From Candidatus Omnitrophota bacterium (GTDB taxonomy: Bacteria; Omnitrophota; Omnitrophia; Omnitrophales; Aquincolibacteriaceae): 50,784 bases of DNA. The first letter of the stretch is position 1. Every line of letters begins with the position of its first letter. Shown here in pieces: positions 24,782-32,376 of the stretch. The stretch lies in assembly GCA_018883425.1 (NCBI GenBank), contig VFQY01000008.1:1-50784 (forward strand), given 5' to 3'. A program made the translations under genes and the position numbers. A model generated the notes under the pieces. It did not search any database and was not told where the DNA came from. It worked only from the letters and a program-made list of their open reading frames with translations.

Positions 24782-25567
24782 TTATCTTTTCAGCCGGACC
24801 GCAGGATACTTGACAGAAATCAGCATAAGTCCTTGCGCCGGCATAGTTTTAGGAGCTAGCCTTCGATCTTTTGCCTGCAAAATTTCACGTGTGCGGGCTG
24901 GCGAAATCCGCCCCAATCCCGCCTCAACGAGCATCCCCGCGATATTACGCACCATGCGGTAAAGAAACCCGTCGGCCTCCACCCGGATGAGCACCATCGA
25001 ACCTTCACGGCGCACGCTCAGCTTGCGAATCGTACGCACGCTGTTGCGTTCCCCTTTGCGGGAGGCATCCTGCGCCGATAGAGATCGAAAATCATGGCGC
25101 CCCTTCAGGACCTTGGCGGATCTTCTCATTGCCGCGATGTCGAGCTTTCGCATGACGTGACAGCTCTGAGCCGCTCTCAGAGGCGAACGCACCGGAGAGT
25201 TCCAAATGCGGTACTCGTAGGTTTTTCCGGCCGCCCCGAACCGCGCGTGAAAATCCTGTGCAGCCTCGCGCACTTCTTTTACCGCAATGGCTGGCGGAAG
25301 AATACCGTTCAGCGCTTTGCGGATCGCGCCGCACGCCATCGGACTCGACGTCCTGAAATTCACTGTCTGCGCGCGCGCGTGAACGCCCGTGTCTGTCCGC
25401 CCGCTCGCAGATTCGATTTTGAGCGGCTGATCGAAAAGCCGGCTGAGTGCGTTTTCAAGAGTTTCCTGGACCGTAGCGTGCCGAGGCTGTCTCTGAAAAC
25501 CAAAAAAAGCGGCGCCGTCATATTCGAGAACCAGCTTGATATTGCGCCGCAATTCCGGCCCCCGCAT
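24782..25567 (-). CDS. truA: tRNA pseudouridine(38-40) synthase TruA
   Basis: 261 aa. Modifies uridines 38-40 of the tRNA anticodon arm. The catalytic Asp lies in SGRTDTGVHARAQ (about residue 60), and LEYDGAAFFGFQRQ near the N-terminus and FLYRMVRNIAGMLVEAG near the C-terminus are family signatures. Lies 6 bp after asd and upstream of the rplM promoter, the order seen in many leuB-asd-truA-rplM-rpsI clusters. Confidence 0.96.
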   Translation of the reverse strand: MRGPELRRNIKLVLEYDGAAFFGFQRQPRHATVQETLENALSRLFDQPLKIESASGRTDTGVHARAQTVNFRTSSPMACGAIRKALNGILPPAIAVKEVREAAQDFHARFGAAGKTYEYRIWNSPVRSPLRAAQSCHVMRKLDIAAMRRSAKVLKGRHDFRSLSAQDASRKGERNSVRTIRKLSVRREGSMVLIRVEADGFLYRMVRNIAGMLVEAGLGRISPARTREILQAKDRRLAPKTMPAQGLMLISVKYPAVRLKR

Positions 25568-25573
25568 TCGAAC

Positions 25574-26599
25574 CTAAACGTTCACGGACGATGCCGTGCG
25601 CGCCCAAATCTCAGCGATCTGAACGGCATTGAGCGCCGCCCCCTTGCGGATTTGATCGCCGCTGACGAAGAGGCAGACTTCCTGGGGCCGCTTGTCGTTC
25701 ACGCGAATCCGGCCCGCGAGAATTTCGTCCTTGCCGCTCGCTTCGATCGGCATAGGAAAATAGTTGTTCTTGCGGTCATCAATCAGCTTCACACCCTCCG
25801 CGCCGGCAAGCGCACGGCGGACCTCGTCGACCGACAGCGGCTTTTCAAATTCAGCGTAAATCGACTCCGAGTGAGCTCGGTAAACCGGCACGCGCACGGT
25901 CGTCGGAAGAACTTCGATCGAGGGATCGTGAAAAATTTTCCTTGTTTCCTGGACCATCTTTTTTTCTTCGTCGCAAAAACCGGTGGCCTCATCCATCTCG
26001 CTGTTATGCGAGAAAAGGTTAAAGGCGATCTGGTGAGGGAAAACCTGCTTGGTCGGCTCCTTGCCTTCGAGAACTTCGCGCGCCTGATTTTCGAGCTCAA
26101 GCATCGCTTTCGCGCCTGCCCCGCTCGCGGACTGATATGTAGAAACGATCACGCGCTTCAATCGGGCAATTTTGTGCAGCGGAAAAAGAGGCACGAGCAT
26201 GATAATTGTCGAGCAGTTGGGGTTGGCGATCACACCCTTGTGACGGCGGATGTCCTCGGGGTTGATCTCCGGAACAACCAGCGGCACATCCGGTTCCATG
26301 CGGAAAGCGCTGGTGTTATCCACGACGAGCGCGCCGGCCTTGACGGCATGGGGCACAAGTTTCTTGGAAATCGATCCCCCGGCGCTGGACAGCACCAGGT
26401 CAATTCCTTCAAAGGAGTCTTCGCGAGCCTCTTCGATCGTGATCGGCTGACCTCGAAATTTGATTTTGCTTCCGGCCGATTTTGCCGAGGCAAGCGCTTT
26501 GAGCGAGGCGATAGGAAATCGGCGTTCTTCGAGAAGCTCAAGAAGCTCCTGCCCTACGGCTCCGGTAACACCCAAAATAGCGACATTCAGAGGTTTCAT
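25574..26599 (-). CDS. asd: Aspartate-semialdehyde dehydrogenase
   Basis: 341 aa from the ATG at 26599, which has AAAGG 8 nt upstream; the track start is a GTG three codons earlier. Reduces aspartyl phosphate to aspartate semialdehyde, feeding DapA. N-terminal GVTGAVGQELLELL (NADP binding) and the catalytic cysteine in ANPNCSTI are intact. Sits between leuB and truA, away from the dap genes, as in several other phyla. Confidence 0.96.
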   Translation of the reverse strand: MKPLNVAILGVTGAVGQELLELLEERRFPIASLKALASAKSAGSKIKFRGQPITIEEAREDSFEGIDLVLSSAGGSISKKLVPHAVKAGALVVDNTSAFRMEPDVPLVVPEINPEDIRRHKGVIANPNCSTIIMLVPLFPLHKIARLKRVIVSTYQSASGAGAKAMLELENQAREVLEGKEPTKQVFPHQIAFNLFSHNSEMDEATGFCDEEKKMVQETRKIFHDPSIEVLPTTVRVPVYRAHSESIYAEFEKPLSVDEVRRALAGAEGVKLIDDRKNNYFPMPIEASGKDEILAGRIRVNDKRPQEVCLFVSGDQIRKGAALNAVQIAEIWARTASSVNV

Positions 26600-26638
26600 C
26601 GTTTGCACCTTTCCCCGGTGTGGCCGGGCCCTTTCAGA

Positions 26639-27715
26639 CTACGCGCTCAGATTGTGAAGAACCCGTGATCCCATGTCAGAGCAGGAAACGCGGTTCATGC
26701 CTTGCTCGAAAATGTCCGCCGTGCGGAACCCCTCTGCGAGCGTTTTGACGACAGCCTTCTCAACCGCATGCGCGACCTCATGCAGATTGAAGCTGTATTC
26801 AAGCATCATGGCCACCGAAAGAATGGCCGCCAAAGGATTGGCGATATTTTTTCCGGCGATATCCGGGGCCGAACCATGAACAGGTTCATAGAGGGCGGCT
26901 CCTGCACCCACCGAAGCCGAAGGCAGCATGCCGATGGATCCGGTCAGCATCGCGGCCTCATCGCTCAAGATGTCGCCGAACATGTTGGTCGTCACCATCA
27001 CGTCGAACTGCCGGGGATTGCGGATCAGCTGCATGGCGCAGTCGTCCACGTAGCGGTGATCCAGAGTCACGTCCGGATAATCTTTGTGCACCTCCACGAC
27101 AACCTTGCGCCAGAGACGGCTCGACTCAAGCACATTCGCTTTGTCGACCGAGGTCACTTTGCGGCCTCTGCGGCGGGCAAGCTCAAAAGCCTTGCGGGCA
27201 ATGCGCTCGATCTCGGGCGTTGTATAAACTTCCGTATTGATGCCTTTTTCACCGCGGCCGTCCGCGAGCGTCGAGATCCCGCGGGGTTCCCCGAAATAAA
27301 TTCCTCCGGTGAGCTCACGCACGATGACAAAATCAAGCCCCCGAACGACCTCTTCTTTGAGCGTGGAAATCCGGGCAAGATCCCCGAGCACCTTCACCGG
27401 CCTGAGATTGGCAAAAGCTCCCAGCCCTTTCCGGAGGGCCAGCAATCCTTTTTCGGGGCGAAGCGACGGGTCCACATCATCCCACTTCGGCCCTCCGACC
27501 GCGCCCAGATAAACCGCATCCGCGTTCTGCGCACGTTTGAGCGCCTCGGGTGTCAGCGGAGCACCGTGACGGTCGATGGAGCAGCCGCCCAAAAGGTCCT
27601 CTTCGATTTCAAAAACGAGGTGGAAACTCTCTCCGATCTTGCGGATGAGGCGCAGCGCCTGTTCAGTCACTTCAGGACCAATCCCGTCTCCGGGGAAAAG
27701 CAGAATCTTGTACAT
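26639..27715 (-). CDS. leuB: 3-isopropylmalate dehydrogenase LeuB
   Basis: 358 aa from the ATG at 27715 (start [13 protein letters not shown]); the 32 extra residues in the track are not family sequence. Oxidatively decarboxylates 3-isopropylmalate. The motifs [48 protein letters not shown] and [13 protein letters not shown] are intact. It lies between thiG and asd; its pathway partners leuCD are some 16 kb away on the other strand. Confidence 0.97.
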
Positions 27716-27737
27716 AGCCGAATACCCTTTGTTCAGT

Positions 27738-28520
27738 TTAAGATTTGAGAGCGAGCCCTTCCTGAGGACTCGAGGCCGACGCGTAATCACGAACCGGCAT
27801 GCGCCCGGCAAGGTAAGCCTTGCGGCCCGCGCTGACGGCTTCGCGCATCGCGTGAGCCATTAAGACAGGATCTTGAGCTTGAGCAATCGCCGTGTTCATG
27901 AGCACGCCGGCCGCTCCGAGCTCCATACAGACTGCCGCATCCGAGGCCGTACCGACCCCCGCATCGACAATCACGGGACACTTGACCGCCTCCAGGATAA
28001 ACTGAAGATTCAGACGGTTCTGAATGCCCCGTCCCGATCCGATCGGGCCAGCCAGAGGCATGACGCATGCCGCCCCCGCTTCCTCAAGCCGCTTGGCCAT
28101 CACCGGATCGTCATTGGTGTAGGGCATAACCGTGAAACCTTCCCGAACCAAAATTTCTGTCGCCTCAAGCAGCCCGATCACATCAGGCATCAGGGTCTTC
28201 TTATCCCCGATCACTTCCACTTTCACCAGATCACCGCATCCGGCCGAGCGCCCCATTCGGGCGATCCGCACAGCATCCTTGGCGGTGTAGGCCCCCGCCG
28301 TGTTGGGCAGAAGCACCATGCGGCTGCGGTCAATGTAATCCAGAATATTTTTTCCGCTTTTATTTTCTAAGTCGACACGGCCGATCGCGACCGTAATCAT
28401 CTCTGCTCCCGATGCCGCAACCGCCTCGGCCATCTGTTCGAGAGTCGCGTATTTTCCCGTGCCGACGATCAGACGCGAGGCAATTTCGAATGAACCTATC
28501 TTGAGTTTTGCGTCCTGCAT
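27738..28520 (-). CDS. thiG: Thiazole synthase ThiG
   Basis: 260 aa TIM barrel. Forms the thiazole phosphate of thiamine from DXP, ThiS-thiocarboxylate and dehydroglycine. Recognised by [36 protein letters not shown] with the Schiff-base Lys, and the phosphate-binding GSGRGIQN and [11 protein letters not shown]. No thiS, thiH/thiO, thiF or thiE lies nearby, so it is an orphan inside the glgA-leuB run. AGGCAGGA precedes the ATG. Confidence 0.96.
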
Positions 28521-28559: not shown

Positions 28560-30032
28560 TTACTTTTCGGAACCTTTGAGCTTGCCGCGGGAAACACCCT
28601 GGTAAATTTCGATGTATTTCTTGGCGGAGGATGTCCAGGAAAAATCAGCGGCCATCGCATTCCGGACCAAAATCTGCCAGCTGTCCTGATTCTGATAAAC
28701 TTTCAGTGCCCGCGTCAGGGTCTGAAGGAGCGCCTCGGTCGTGTATTCTTCGAAGACAAAACCCGTCCCCTTACCCGTCTTGACGCTGAATTCCTGAATG
28801 GTGTCTGCCAGCCCCCCCGTCGCGCGCACGAGCGGCACCCCGCCGTAGCGCAGAGCAATCATCTGCCCCAAACCGCAGGGCTCGTAGAACGAGGGCATCA
28901 AAAAAAGGTCGCACCCTGCATAGATGCGCTTGGCCATCCGGCCGTCGAAGACAATGTGAATCCCGAACCGGTCTTTATGTTTCTTGGCAATGTCGCGGAG
29001 GATTTTATGATATTTTTCTTCGCCGGTTCCAAGCAAAACCAGCTGGAGATCGCGCTCAGCCATGGCTTCAAGAGCGGGGATCAGAATGTCTAATCCCTTT
29101 TGATCGACCAGTCTTGTGATCATCCCGATGACCGGCACTTCGGGACGGGGCTTGAAAGCGTTCTCTTTCTGAAGGGCCGCCTTGCAGACTTTTTTTCCTT
29201 CCAGCGAAGCGGCCGAATAGTGCTGAACGATGTCGGCATCAGTCTCGGGGTTCCACTCACGGTAGTCGATCCCGTTAAGGACGCCGTAAAGGGTCTCTTT
29301 GCGGCCGCCTAAAACATTCTCCATCCCGCAGCCGAACTGCTTGGTTTGGATCTCGCGGGCATACCGCTCGCTGACGGTCGTTACCGCATCAGAGTACACG
29401 AGACCGCCCTTCATGAAGCTGACTTTGCCGTAGAACTCCAGCTTTTCGAGTCTGAACTCATCCCAGGAAAGACCCGTCAGAGGCAGTGAGTCCGGCGGAA
29501 AGTTTCCCTGATAGGCCAGGTTATGAATCGTAAAAACAGAGCGCGTTTTTTTGAATAGCGGATCACGTGCGTAGAGGGTTTTCAGGTAAGCGGAAATCAG
29601 GCCGGTCTGCCAATCGTGGCCGTGAAGAATATCCGGCGAAATTTCGAGGGCGCGGAGCGTCTCGAAGACAGCGCGCTGAAAAAAGATGAATCGCCGGTCA
29701 TTATCGGGGTAATCGGACATCGGCGTTCCGTAAAGATGTTCTCTTTGAAAGAAGGCGGGATGATCAATCCAATAGACCTGAACGCCCTTCTCGTCGATCC
29801 CGTGGTAGACGCGTCCATATTCTTTTTCGCTGCCCAGGTCAACGGTGAGCCGTTCCACAGCGGTCTTGAAACCGCTTTTCTGAACGTCCATGCCTCGGTA
29901 GCGAGGCAAAAAGGCCAGCACCTCATGACCGAGCGCCCGGAGTTCGTGGTTCAGAGTGCCGACCACGTCTGCCAGTCCGCCGGTCTTAGCATACGGAATC
30001 ATCTCCGATGCCGCCGAAACGATTTTCATCAT
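28560..30032 (-). CDS. glgA: Glycogen synthase GlgA (ADP-glucose type)
   Basis: About 490 aa, GT5 family, normal length. Elongates alpha-1,4-glucan from ADP-glucose. The N-terminal EMIPYAKTGGLADV binds the donor; HGHDWQTGL, VFTIHNLAYQG and the C-terminal MPSFYEPCGLGQM are also canonical. The track starts at a TTG; the tandem ATG codons at 30032 and 30029 are more likely. It lies 33 bp downstream of a glycogen-binding-domain gene, so both are probably one unit from the promoter at 30385-30413. Confidence 0.95.
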   Translation of the reverse strand: MMKIVSAASEMIPYAKTGGLADVVGTLNHELRALGHEVLAFLPRYRGMDVQKSGFKTAVERLTVDLGSEKEYGRVYHGIDEKGVQVYWIDHPAFFQREHLYGTPMSDYPDNDRRFIFFQRAVFETLRALEISPDILHGHDWQTGLISAYLKTLYARDPLFKKTRSVFTIHNLAYQGNFPPDSLPLTGLSWDEFRLEKLEFYGKVSFMKGGLVYSDAVTTVSERYAREIQTKQFGCGMENVLGGRKETLYGVLNGIDYREWNPETDADIVQHYSAASLEGKKVCKAALQKENAFKPRPEVPVIGMITRLVDQKGLDILIPALEAMAERDLQLVLLGTGEEKYHKILRDIAKKHKDRFGIHIVFDGRMAKRIYAGCDLFLMPSFYEPCGLGQMIALRYGGVPLVRATGGLADTIQEFSVKTGKGTGFVFEEYTTEALLQTLTRALKVYQNQDSWQILVRNAMAADFSWTSSAKKYIEIYQGVSRGKLKGSEK

Positions 30033-30065
30033 TTTTTTTCTCAAGGCTGTTTTTTTTCGATGAGG

Positions 30066-30350
30066 TCAGGAAACTGTGATGACGCAGTTCCAGGTTCCGA
30101 AGGCATTCGGGACGCACTCGACCGGATTTTGATCGTTATGCCAAGCGCCGTCGGCCCAAAACCGGTATTCGTAACGTCCGGGAGCCAGTTTGAGACTCAC
30201 GCTCCAACGGCCTCCCTTGGATTCCTTCATGGGCGTAAGAGCCGGGTTCCAGCCATTAAACGACCCGGCCAAAAAAACACCCTCGGATACAGGAGCAAAG
30301 TATTCAAACGAAACTTCACGCTCGGAATTCCGGGAATTTTGGGACGCCAT
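30066..30350 (-). CDS. Small CBM48/AMPK-type glycogen-binding-domain protein
   Basis: 94 aa, essentially one CBM48 (E-set) domain: the FLAGSFNGWNP hairpin, a WSVSLKLAPGRYEYRFWADG core and a C-terminal NPVECVPNAFGTWNCVITV strand pair. The Trp residues match the starch/glycogen-binding sites of AMPK-beta. Free-standing domains of this type are found in many bacteria; binding glycogen and targeting GlgA, next in the operon, is a reasonable inference. It has its own strong promoter, back-to-back with that of rpmB. Confidence 0.85.
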   Translation of the reverse strand: MASQNSRNSEREVSFEYFAPVSEGVFLAGSFNGWNPALTPMKESKGGRWSVSLKLAPGRYEYRFWADGAWHNDQNPVECVPNAFGTWNCVITVS

Positions 30351-30384
30351 CAGGTCCGCCTTCGTTCATGAATCAGGGTCGGCG

Positions 30385-30413
30385 AGTATAGCCCAGAAAA
30401 AAGGGCTTGCCAA
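30385..30413 (-). promoter_or_regulatory. Promoter of the glycogen-binding protein and glgA
   Basis: Minus-strand TTGGCA (5/6), 17-bp spacer, TATACT (5/6). The leader is about 28-30 nt with AGGCGGA shortly before the ATG. Its -35 covers 30408-30413, almost coincident with the rpmB -35 on the other strand. Confidence 0.75.
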
Positions 30414-30435
30414 GGGACATCTTATTGCCTATTAT
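30407..30435 (+). promoter_or_regulatory. rpmB promoter with -10 box 8 nt from the start codon
   Basis: TTGCCA (5/6), 17-bp spacer, TATTAT (5/6), then 8 nt to the rpmB ATG with no Shine-Dalgarno. Predicts a leaderless or near-leaderless mRNA. The -35 shares bases 30408-30412 with the divergent promoter. Confidence 0.75.
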
Positions 30436-30443
30436 CCACGGCC

Positions 30444-30725
30444 ATGAACCGCTGTGCTATCTCTGGTAAAAAACCTATCGTCGGCAATTCGATCGCTCGC
30501 CGCGGTCTAGCCAAGAAATCCGGCGGAGTCGGTAAGAAAACTACGGGCATTACGCGCCGCCGTTTCTATCCGAATCTCCAGCGCGTCAAGGTCGTTCTCC
30601 CGAACGGCACTGTCAAACGGATCTGGGTAGCCGCGTCGATGATTCAGGCGGGCAAAGTCAAGAAGGCAGTGAATCACCGCAAAGCTTATCTGGCAAAAGC
30701 TAAAGCGGCTAAAACTGCGGCTTGA
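30444..30725 (+). CDS. rpmB: 50S ribosomal protein L28
   Basis: 93 aa with the L28 signatures [25 protein letters not shown] and a basic Lys/Ala C-terminus. A monocistronic gene on the plus strand. Its ATG lies 8 nt after a -10 box without a ribosome site. Its 3' end overlaps the 3' end of recJ tail-to-tail by 17 bp, leaving no room for a separate terminator. Confidence 0.95.
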
Positions 30726-32376
30726 TCTCCTTCGCTTCAAGAACCACGCGCTCTCTTCCTTCCCAAGATTTAATCTTCAAGGAATAAGAGAGGTCGAATG
30801 TCTTCCCCTGCTGAAGGGTTCTGAGAGTGCTTTCACTTTCGGGGCTTTCATGAGGGGATTTCTCTGTCCACAAAGCCTCGTAGACAAAGACTCCGTCCGT
30901 GACATAGAACTGATGCGTCATCGGACTTAACCGCACCGGCTTCGTCTTCAGCTGAAGGGCCTCGGTTCGGAAAACAGGTCTGGGGTTGCCCATGCCGTGC
31001 GGTTCCATCATTTTCAATTCCTGCACAAACGGCGAGGTCAAGTCTTCGAGCTGAAGTTGCAGATCGACGGGAACCGTTTTGATCAGATCCGCCGGATTCA
31101 TTTTCTCGCGAGCATAATCATTGATGCGGGCTCGGAAGGCGCCCAGGTTGCTGTCCATCATGGAAAGCCCCGCAGCCTGAGCATGTCCGCCGAATTCGAG
31201 AAATAAGTCCTGAGAATGACTCAAAGCTTCGTATAAGTTAAAGCCTTTGATCGATCGGCCCGAGCCTTTGCCCTTGCCGTTCTCGAAAGCAATCACGATG
31301 GCGGGACGGTGAAAACGATCCACCAGACGCGACGCGACAATTCCTATGACACCCTGATGCCAGCCTTCGGAACCCACGACAATCACGCGGTCACGGCTGA
31401 AATTCATCGTGCGTTCGACTTCCCGCACAGCGTCCTTCACGGTCTGCCTCTCTTCGCGTTGGCGCGCCTTATTCTCCTCATCCAGAACCTTGGCAAGGCT
31501 TTCAGCTTCGCGGGGGCTTTCGCTCATCAGAAGTCTTAGGGCAATTTCGGGACTGCTCATGCGTCCGGCTGCATTGATGCGGGGGCCGAACGCAAATCCG
31601 ATATGTCCGACGTTCATTTCGGGACCGTTGATCTTGGCCACTTCACAGAGCGCTTTAAAACCCAAGCTCGTTCGCTGAGCAAGAAGCTTGAGACCTTTAC
31701 GGACGATCACCCGGTTTTCATCCTGAAGGGGCGCAACATCGCACACCGTCGAAACTGCGGCAAGATCCAGAAACTGATAGGCCCGGACCCCTAGCAGAGC
31801 TTGGCTGAACTTAAAGGCCAACCCCCCAGCCGAAAGCTCCTTAAACGGATAGCTGCAGTCTGAGCGCAGAGGATTCAGAATGGCGTCGGCCTCAGGAAGT
31901 CCTTCGGCCGGAATTCTGTGGTGATCGATGATGATCACGCTCATGCCGAGCCGCCGCGCCAGCGCGATTTTACTGCCGGCTGCCACGCCGCAATCCACGG
32001 TGATCAGCAGTTTCTCTCCCGCCGCTGCTCCTTCGCGGATCGCGCGTTCGCTCACACCGTATCCATCCTCGGACCGGTTCGGCAGAAAAACACGGTGTTC
32101 CACGCCTAAAAGCCTAAGAGTTTTTGCCGTTATGCTGGCGCCTGTGACTCCGTCCACGTCATAGTCACCGTGAATCATCACGCGGCCTCCCTGAGCGGCC
32201 GTTTTTTGGACGAGTGCGCAGGCTTCGGCCATGTCTTTCATGCGGAACGGATCGGTCAAATCCGGGAGATCGGCTTTGAGAAAAGCTTCGACAGCCTTAG
32301 GTTCTTCCAGCCCCCGCAATTTCAGGAGCTGGAGGAACCGCGGCGTGTAAGAGTTGTTCTGGAGAATTGAGTTCAA
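30709..32376 (-). CDS. recJ: Single-strand-specific exonuclease RecJ
   Basis: 555 aa, 5'-3' ssDNA exonuclease of the DHH family used in recombination and repair. DHH motifs are visible: [26 protein letters not shown], and [11 protein letters not shown] of the DHHA1 part, followed by an OB-like C-terminal region. It starts with TTG overlapping the secDF stop, with AAGGCG upstream, and is the last gene of the queA-tgt-yajC-secDF-recJ unit. Confidence 0.95.

Follow-up and report, generated by a model that had tools for sequence, protein, structure and literature searches.

Genes and promoter elements at the locus

The DNA analysed here, a 50,784-nt stretch that we refer to as the window, comes from a genome of Candidatus Omnitrophota (2.18 Mb, 156 contigs). 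It carries rpmB, the gene for ribosomal protein L28, which lies divergent from a gene for a small glycogen-binding protein with a CBM48/AMPK1_CBM domain. The latter is followed by glgA, the sole GT5 gene found in the source genome. The coordinates of the genes and of the elements between them are listed in Table 1.

Table 1. Genes and promoter features around the rpmB/CBM48-glgA intergenic region (positions in the window)
Feature	Position	Strand	Remarks
thiG-like, leuB, asd, truA	24782..28520	-	The leftward operon probably extends through these genes
glgA, glycogen synthase	28560..30044	-	TIGR02095, 581 bits; one PF08323 match
Small CBM48/AMPK1_CBM glycogen-binding protein, 94 aa	30066..30350	-	PF16561, 1.4e-12; PF02922, 1.9e-12
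Shine-Dalgarno-like GAAGGCGG	30356..30363	-	Upstream of the CBM48 start
Putative CBM48-glgA promoter, -10 hexamer TATACT	30385..30390	-	Family variation only at hexamer positions 5 (C/A) and 3 (once)
A6 tract	30397..30402	+	UP-element-like position for the rpmB promoter, inside the leftward spacer; 0-1 changes per site
Shared near-palindromic -35 core CTTGCCAAG	30406..30414	both	Bases 1-8 invariant; last G in 25/26 relatives
Putative rpmB promoter, -35 hexamer TTGCCA	30407..30412	+	Identical in 26/26 family genomes
Putative CBM48-glgA promoter, -35 hexamer TTGGCA	30408..30413	-	Identical in 26/26 family genomes
CATCT patch in the rpmB spacer	30418..30422		Conserved; mirrors the A6 tract about the core centre
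Putative rpmB promoter, -10 hexamer TATTAT	30430..30435	+	TATAAT with a 16-bp spacer in 25 relatives
GC-rich discriminator CCACGGCC	30436..30443	+	Separates the rpmB -10 from the ATG
rpmB, ribosomal protein L28	30444..30725	+	PF00830, 5.2e-12; TIGR00009 above cut-off
recJ	30709..32376	-	Convergent with rpmB

Each strand of the intergenic region carries hexamers at the spacing of sigma-70-type promoters (16-18 bp), upstream of a gene. Rightward, TTGCCA-17-TATTAT (10/12 matches) stands ahead of the rpmB ATG at 30444; leftward, TTGGCA-17-TATACT (10/12 matches) stands ahead of the ATG of the CBM48 protein at 30350, with glgA next. Direct reading of the sequence places the overlap of the two -35 hexamers at 30408-30412, that is, five of six bases, and opposite core elements thus fall on the same base pairs, as is general for overlapping divergent promoters. 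A sequence-only reading of this DNA had proposed precisely this arrangement, with TTGCCAA and TTGGCAA on opposite strands, a -10 at 17-bp spacing on each, and a 5-base overlap, and it was right base for base.

As a description of the family, the 17-bp spacing has to be amended on one side. The leftward spacer is 17 bp in all 26 family genomes that could be compared, and the promoter reads TTGGCA-17-TATACT or TATAAT in 25 of them and TACAAT in one. On the rpmB side, however, the 17-bp spacer and TATTAT are peculiar to the source species, whereas a 16-bp spacer and TATAAT are seen in the remaining 25 relatives, so that the distance from -10 to -10 is 38 bp in the family and 39 bp in the source species. 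The feature that is conserved comprises CTTGCCAAG, both -10s, the A6 tract, and the CATCT patch. From its position, the A6 tract may act as an UP element of the rpmB promoter; no sigma contact or known promoter element accounts for CATCT.

The block occurs once per genome throughout the family

We sampled 27 genomes of the family; rpmB was detectable in 26, which span 17 genera. The block AGTATATATCAGAAAAAAnnnCTTGCCAAGnnnCATCTnnnnnCTATAAT was found in all 26, and in 24 of them the rpmB ATG follows 8-10 nt further on. When a model built from the sequence of the block was searched, it found one full-length copy per genome, always at rpmB, in 26/26 genomes, and none among 357 Omnitrophota genomes outside the family. 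At a tolerance of one mismatch, the two-way pattern had a single match in the 2.18-Mb source genome, namely the rpmB locus, and its reversed control had 0 matches there; the two-way pattern is not due to chance. Across 49 genomes of the class, the form with the 16-bp spacer gave 24 exact matches at rpmB and one exact match elsewhere. A wider pattern scan gave, among the matches listed, three from the family, all at this same locus, and none of the others listed also carried the left -10.

The gene context is kept as well. The CBM48 gene is divergent from rpmB in all 26 genomes, with glgA directly in its place in one (G024), and recJ is convergent downstream of rpmB in most family genomes whose contig extends that far. 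Taken together, the fused form of the promoters is likely a family trait, judging from these genome comparisons.

Constraint follows the outline of two promoters

We then counted changes per base by parsimony, using a protein tree for the 26 species. The flanks of the block show about 8-16 changes per base, with about 12 typical. The count drops from 11 at the last free base to 0 at the adjoining, outermost base of the leftward -10; along that hexamer, which is T-A-T-A-C/A-T in its own direction, it is 0, 0, 1, 0, 3, and 0. A hexamer in which positions 1, 2, and 6 are the most important should show such a pattern; positions 3 and 5 are weakly conserved in -10 elements. The CTTGCCAAG core has 0 changes save 1 at the last G. 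The rightward -10 hexamer has 1 change at each position because of the one-base spacer shift in the source species. In the rpmB spacer, the five bases of CATCT have 5, 0, 6, 2, and 1 changes, compared to about 12 in the flanks.

For comparison, we took the rpsT promoters (L186-L208) from these genomes as a control. They have an invariant TTGACA, a 17-bp spacer, and mostly a TGTG(T/C)TACATT-like extended -10, and rpsT itself mostly has a leader of the Shine-Dalgarno (SD) type in the family genomes. Their hexamers are constrained, their spacer is mostly free, and the DNA upstream is free; over the upstream stretch, rpsT has 9.8 changes per site versus 1.2 for rpmB. This set of rpsT promoters is also a useful promoter reference for Omnitrophota.

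These data bear on an alternative in which rpmB has a strong promoter, the left part of the block, AGTATATATCAGAAAAAA, is only its UP element, and there is no leftward promoter at all. Relative to the rpmB promoter, AGTATATATCAGAAAAAA does occupy about -57 to -38; it is AT-rich, and by comparison with the UP consensus its A6 tract resembles the proximal UP subsite. However, this reading does not fit the constraint on the left hexamer, which carries the signature of a -10 and ends in a sharp outer edge. Nor does it fit the source species and G020, in which the bases adjoining the leftward hexamer are altered (TATATC to TAGCCC) and the hexamer is nevertheless retained; the rpsT promoter, moreover, does without such a block, and the leftward promoter seen in other families lies at no fixed distance from that of rpmB. 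We therefore rejected the UP-element-only reading, which we regard as very improbable, on the shape of the constraint, the varying leftward distance in relatives, and the rpsT control.

A second alternative takes CTTGCCAAG as the operator of a dimeric regulator, by which both genes would be co-regulated rather than reciprocally regulated. The core is palindromic, it is constrained beyond what a -35 needs, and extra conserved patches flank it on both sides, all of which favours an operator. Yet each genome has one full copy of the block and elsewhere only weak partial matches, the locus has no linked regulator gene, and we consider an operator improbable. An operator serving a wider regulon was rejected, as a second full copy is absent from every family genome.

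Instead, it is very likely, from the pattern of conservation, that the block consists of two real promoters that share the CTTGCCAAG core.

Predicted transcripts from the shared core

Rightward, the CTTGCCAAG core would drive an rpmB mRNA that is probably leaderless. The distance from the rpmB -10 to the ATG is 8-10 nt in 24/26 genomes, the discriminator between them is 79% GC across the family, and the start of the mRNA is predicted to fall within 0-3 nt of the ATG. The two exceptions (G003 and G016) carry an 83-nt inverted-repeat-rich element between the rpmB -10 and the ATG (L006 and L009; G003:C171:12847-12929 and G016:C1:44859-44941), and the promoter block is intact in both. The element is repeated at dispersed sites, at times in tandem; genus g2 has dozens of copies, and a few occur in g11 and g16. 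It had resembled a structured leader RNA, a reading that was rejected given so many copies. A search of the whole window against Rfam returned one tRNA and nothing else.

Leftward, the same core would drive an SD-led mRNA of CBM48-glgA, probably with thiG, leuB, asd, and truA. In nearly all relatives, an SD-like leader is present on the leftward side, and 23-96 nt separate the -10 from the start codon. Between glgA and truA, the one leftward promoter-like site in the scan is weak (9/12, within leuB), and the next strong one (11/12) lies just past truA; the leftward transcript therefore probably continues through glgA, the thiG-like gene, leuB, asd, and truA. A similar downstream gene order was seen in 11 relatives inspected, although thiG is missing in some and the number of LeuB-like genes varies. 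The thiG-like gene is called so from its family; no NCBIfam equivalog reached the cut-off. If the leftward unit is this broad, the programme that opposes rpmB comprises storage together with amino-acid, cofactor, and tRNA modification genes, and not glycogen alone.

The ends of recJ and rpmB overlap by 17 nt in the source genome (30709-30725) and by 4 nt in many relatives. With a convergent recJ directly after it, rpmB is probably monocistronic and would be antisense within the leftward gene series. We found no leftward intrinsic terminator between recJ and CBM48-glgA. The position of rpmB, antisense between recJ and CBM48-glgA, resembles what would be seen in a possible non-contiguous operon.

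Elsewhere in the order, the gene pair usually has separate promoters

In other families of the order, the gene pair usually has a separate rpmB-type and glgA-type promoter, with 31-291 bp between the -10s: 31 bp in f4, about 57 bp in f8 (L037), about 70-77 bp in much of f3, 135 bp in f5, and 291 bp in f7. The leftward promoter of these families has a 17-bp spacing and a -10 of the TATACT or TATAAT type, typically TATACT with TTGCAA, TTGAAA, or TTGAAT, and their rpmB promoter usually has a 16-bp spacer. Promoters were scored across families with a simple in-house matrix, which one f4 locus (L040) fits poorly. At two loci CBM48/glgA lies about 1.2 kb off, and neither showed a TATACT-type promoter. 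From this comparison, the two promoters appear to be fused in the family studied here.

The sequence-only reading had looked to conservation of the core wherever the gene pair is kept. Within the family this is borne out in 26/26 genomes; across the order it does not hold, since other families keep the pair with separate or offset promoters, and the overlap is thus unnecessary for the gene pair to work.

This comparison leaves room for a neutral history, to which we give about an even chance. In it, drift in the ancestor of the family brought two real promoters into overlap, after which the shared core froze because any change would damage both promoters; one polymerase would still exclude the other, but with no regulatory purpose. 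The promoter anatomy is the same as in the explanation that we prefer, and the two differ only on purpose. Such a double constraint is expected to be self-locking, and the separate promoters of other families indicate that no function demands the overlap. Lock-in alone, however, leaves the A6 tract and the CATCT patch, both outside the hexamers, unexplained; an UP element or a separate factor could explain them.

In the sister family f3, four loci (L030, L035, L036, and L042) have separate promoters with a near-constant 75-77 bp between the -10s, and at two of them (L035 and L036) there is some sequence similarity between the two -35s.

Probable mutual exclusion and its possible use

The explanation that we prefer, and consider likely as a whole, is a compact bidirectional sigma-70-type promoter in which one -35 core serves both strands and the two directions exclude each other. 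Geometry supports the exclusion well, as does work on other overlapping promoters, and it is probable in its own right: sigma region 4 would need the same base pairs in opposite orientations, and one RNA polymerase would therefore exclude the other. In simple scoring, the rpmB side reaches 14.4 versus 12.8 for the leftward side in the relatives, and 13.0 versus 12.8 in the source species. Given the higher rpmB score of the relatives and the A-tract in UP position, rpmB would be the restraining direction. Firing of rpmB would hold down the leftward operon, and a fall in rpmB initiation would release it. For E. coli bidirectional promoters, which share the -10, little competition has been reported at basal strength, but the opposite direction was strongly repressed when one direction had been improved or activated (PMC12825309).

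Whether exclusion serves a purpose is another matter. The sequence-only reading had linked ribosome production reciprocally to glycogen synthesis, an interpretation that is supported in part but goes beyond the evidence: a single ribosomal protein gene lies on one side, and the leftward unit on the other is probably broader than glycogen synthesis. That related families hold the gene pair with non-overlapping -35s also speaks against exclusion having been selected, as it implies that exclusion is not essential. We think it rather doubtful that reciprocal regulation was selected as such, and the use of exclusion as a growth/storage switch is speculative.

A stringent-type version of such a switch would have ppGpp shut the rpmB promoter at its GC-rich discriminator and thereby free the glgA promoter. 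The 79% GC of the discriminator suits this idea, but a stringently controlled promoter needs ppGpp made in the cell, and the RelA/SpoT domain (PF04607) was not detected in 25 of the 27 family genomes, the source included (a sequence-based absence in draft genomes). The exceptions are G020 and G009, and 11 of 14 controls were positive. This disfavours stringent control, and we hold the ppGpp switch to be extremely improbable. As a separate observation, the absence of RelA/SpoT suggests a loss of ppGpp signalling in this family of Omnitrophota.

A switch built into the shared promoter itself would have the polymerase act as the reciprocal switch between a ribosomal protein and an operon for glycogen and amino-acid/cofactor genes, in a family apparently without ppGpp synthetases. 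We judge this unlikely. It would perhaps be read via promoter-specific initiation at a leaderless rpmB start with a GC discriminator. If exclusion is true and used, production of a ribosome part would be coupled to storage without a regulator protein, and this in a lineage that seems to lack ppGpp, the customary signal of growth rate.

Comparison with known overlapping promoters

The block resembles the bidirectional promoters with a symmetric -10 known from E. coli and other bacteria in that a short DNA stretch serves divergent transcription with one polymerase orientation at a time, and in those promoters competition is demonstrable when one direction is strong. They are, however, defined by -10 symmetry, with a shared -10 and start sites 7-25 bp apart, and the rpmB/glgA block falls outside this definition, as it shares the -35 and has inferred starts about 65 bp apart. 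It also differs in its deep conservation at a single locus.

The overlapping divergent promoters Pc and Pr of plasmid pLS20 are alike in that the polymerase is argued to be a switch between different programmes (PMC4207663). There, the -10 of one promoter is proposed to be the -35 of the other, whereas in the rpmB/glgA block the -35s coincide; direction in pLS20 is set by the regulator RcoLS20 (PMC4207663), and no regulator is known for the rpmB/glgA block. Ordinary back-to-back divergent promoters, the form seen in most other families of the order, have the same gene orientation but separate -35s, no overlap of core elements, and no necessary exclusion. Our literature search returned no described divergent promoter with a shared -35, in a field where '-35' phrases are poorly searchable and with incomplete journal coverage. 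With a shared -35 instead of a shared -10, and unusually deep conservation, the block is a new form of bidirectional promoter. Its conservation across 17 genera, set against the separate promoters of the sister families, provides a natural comparison series for asking if promoter overlap serves regulation or is an evolutionary trap.
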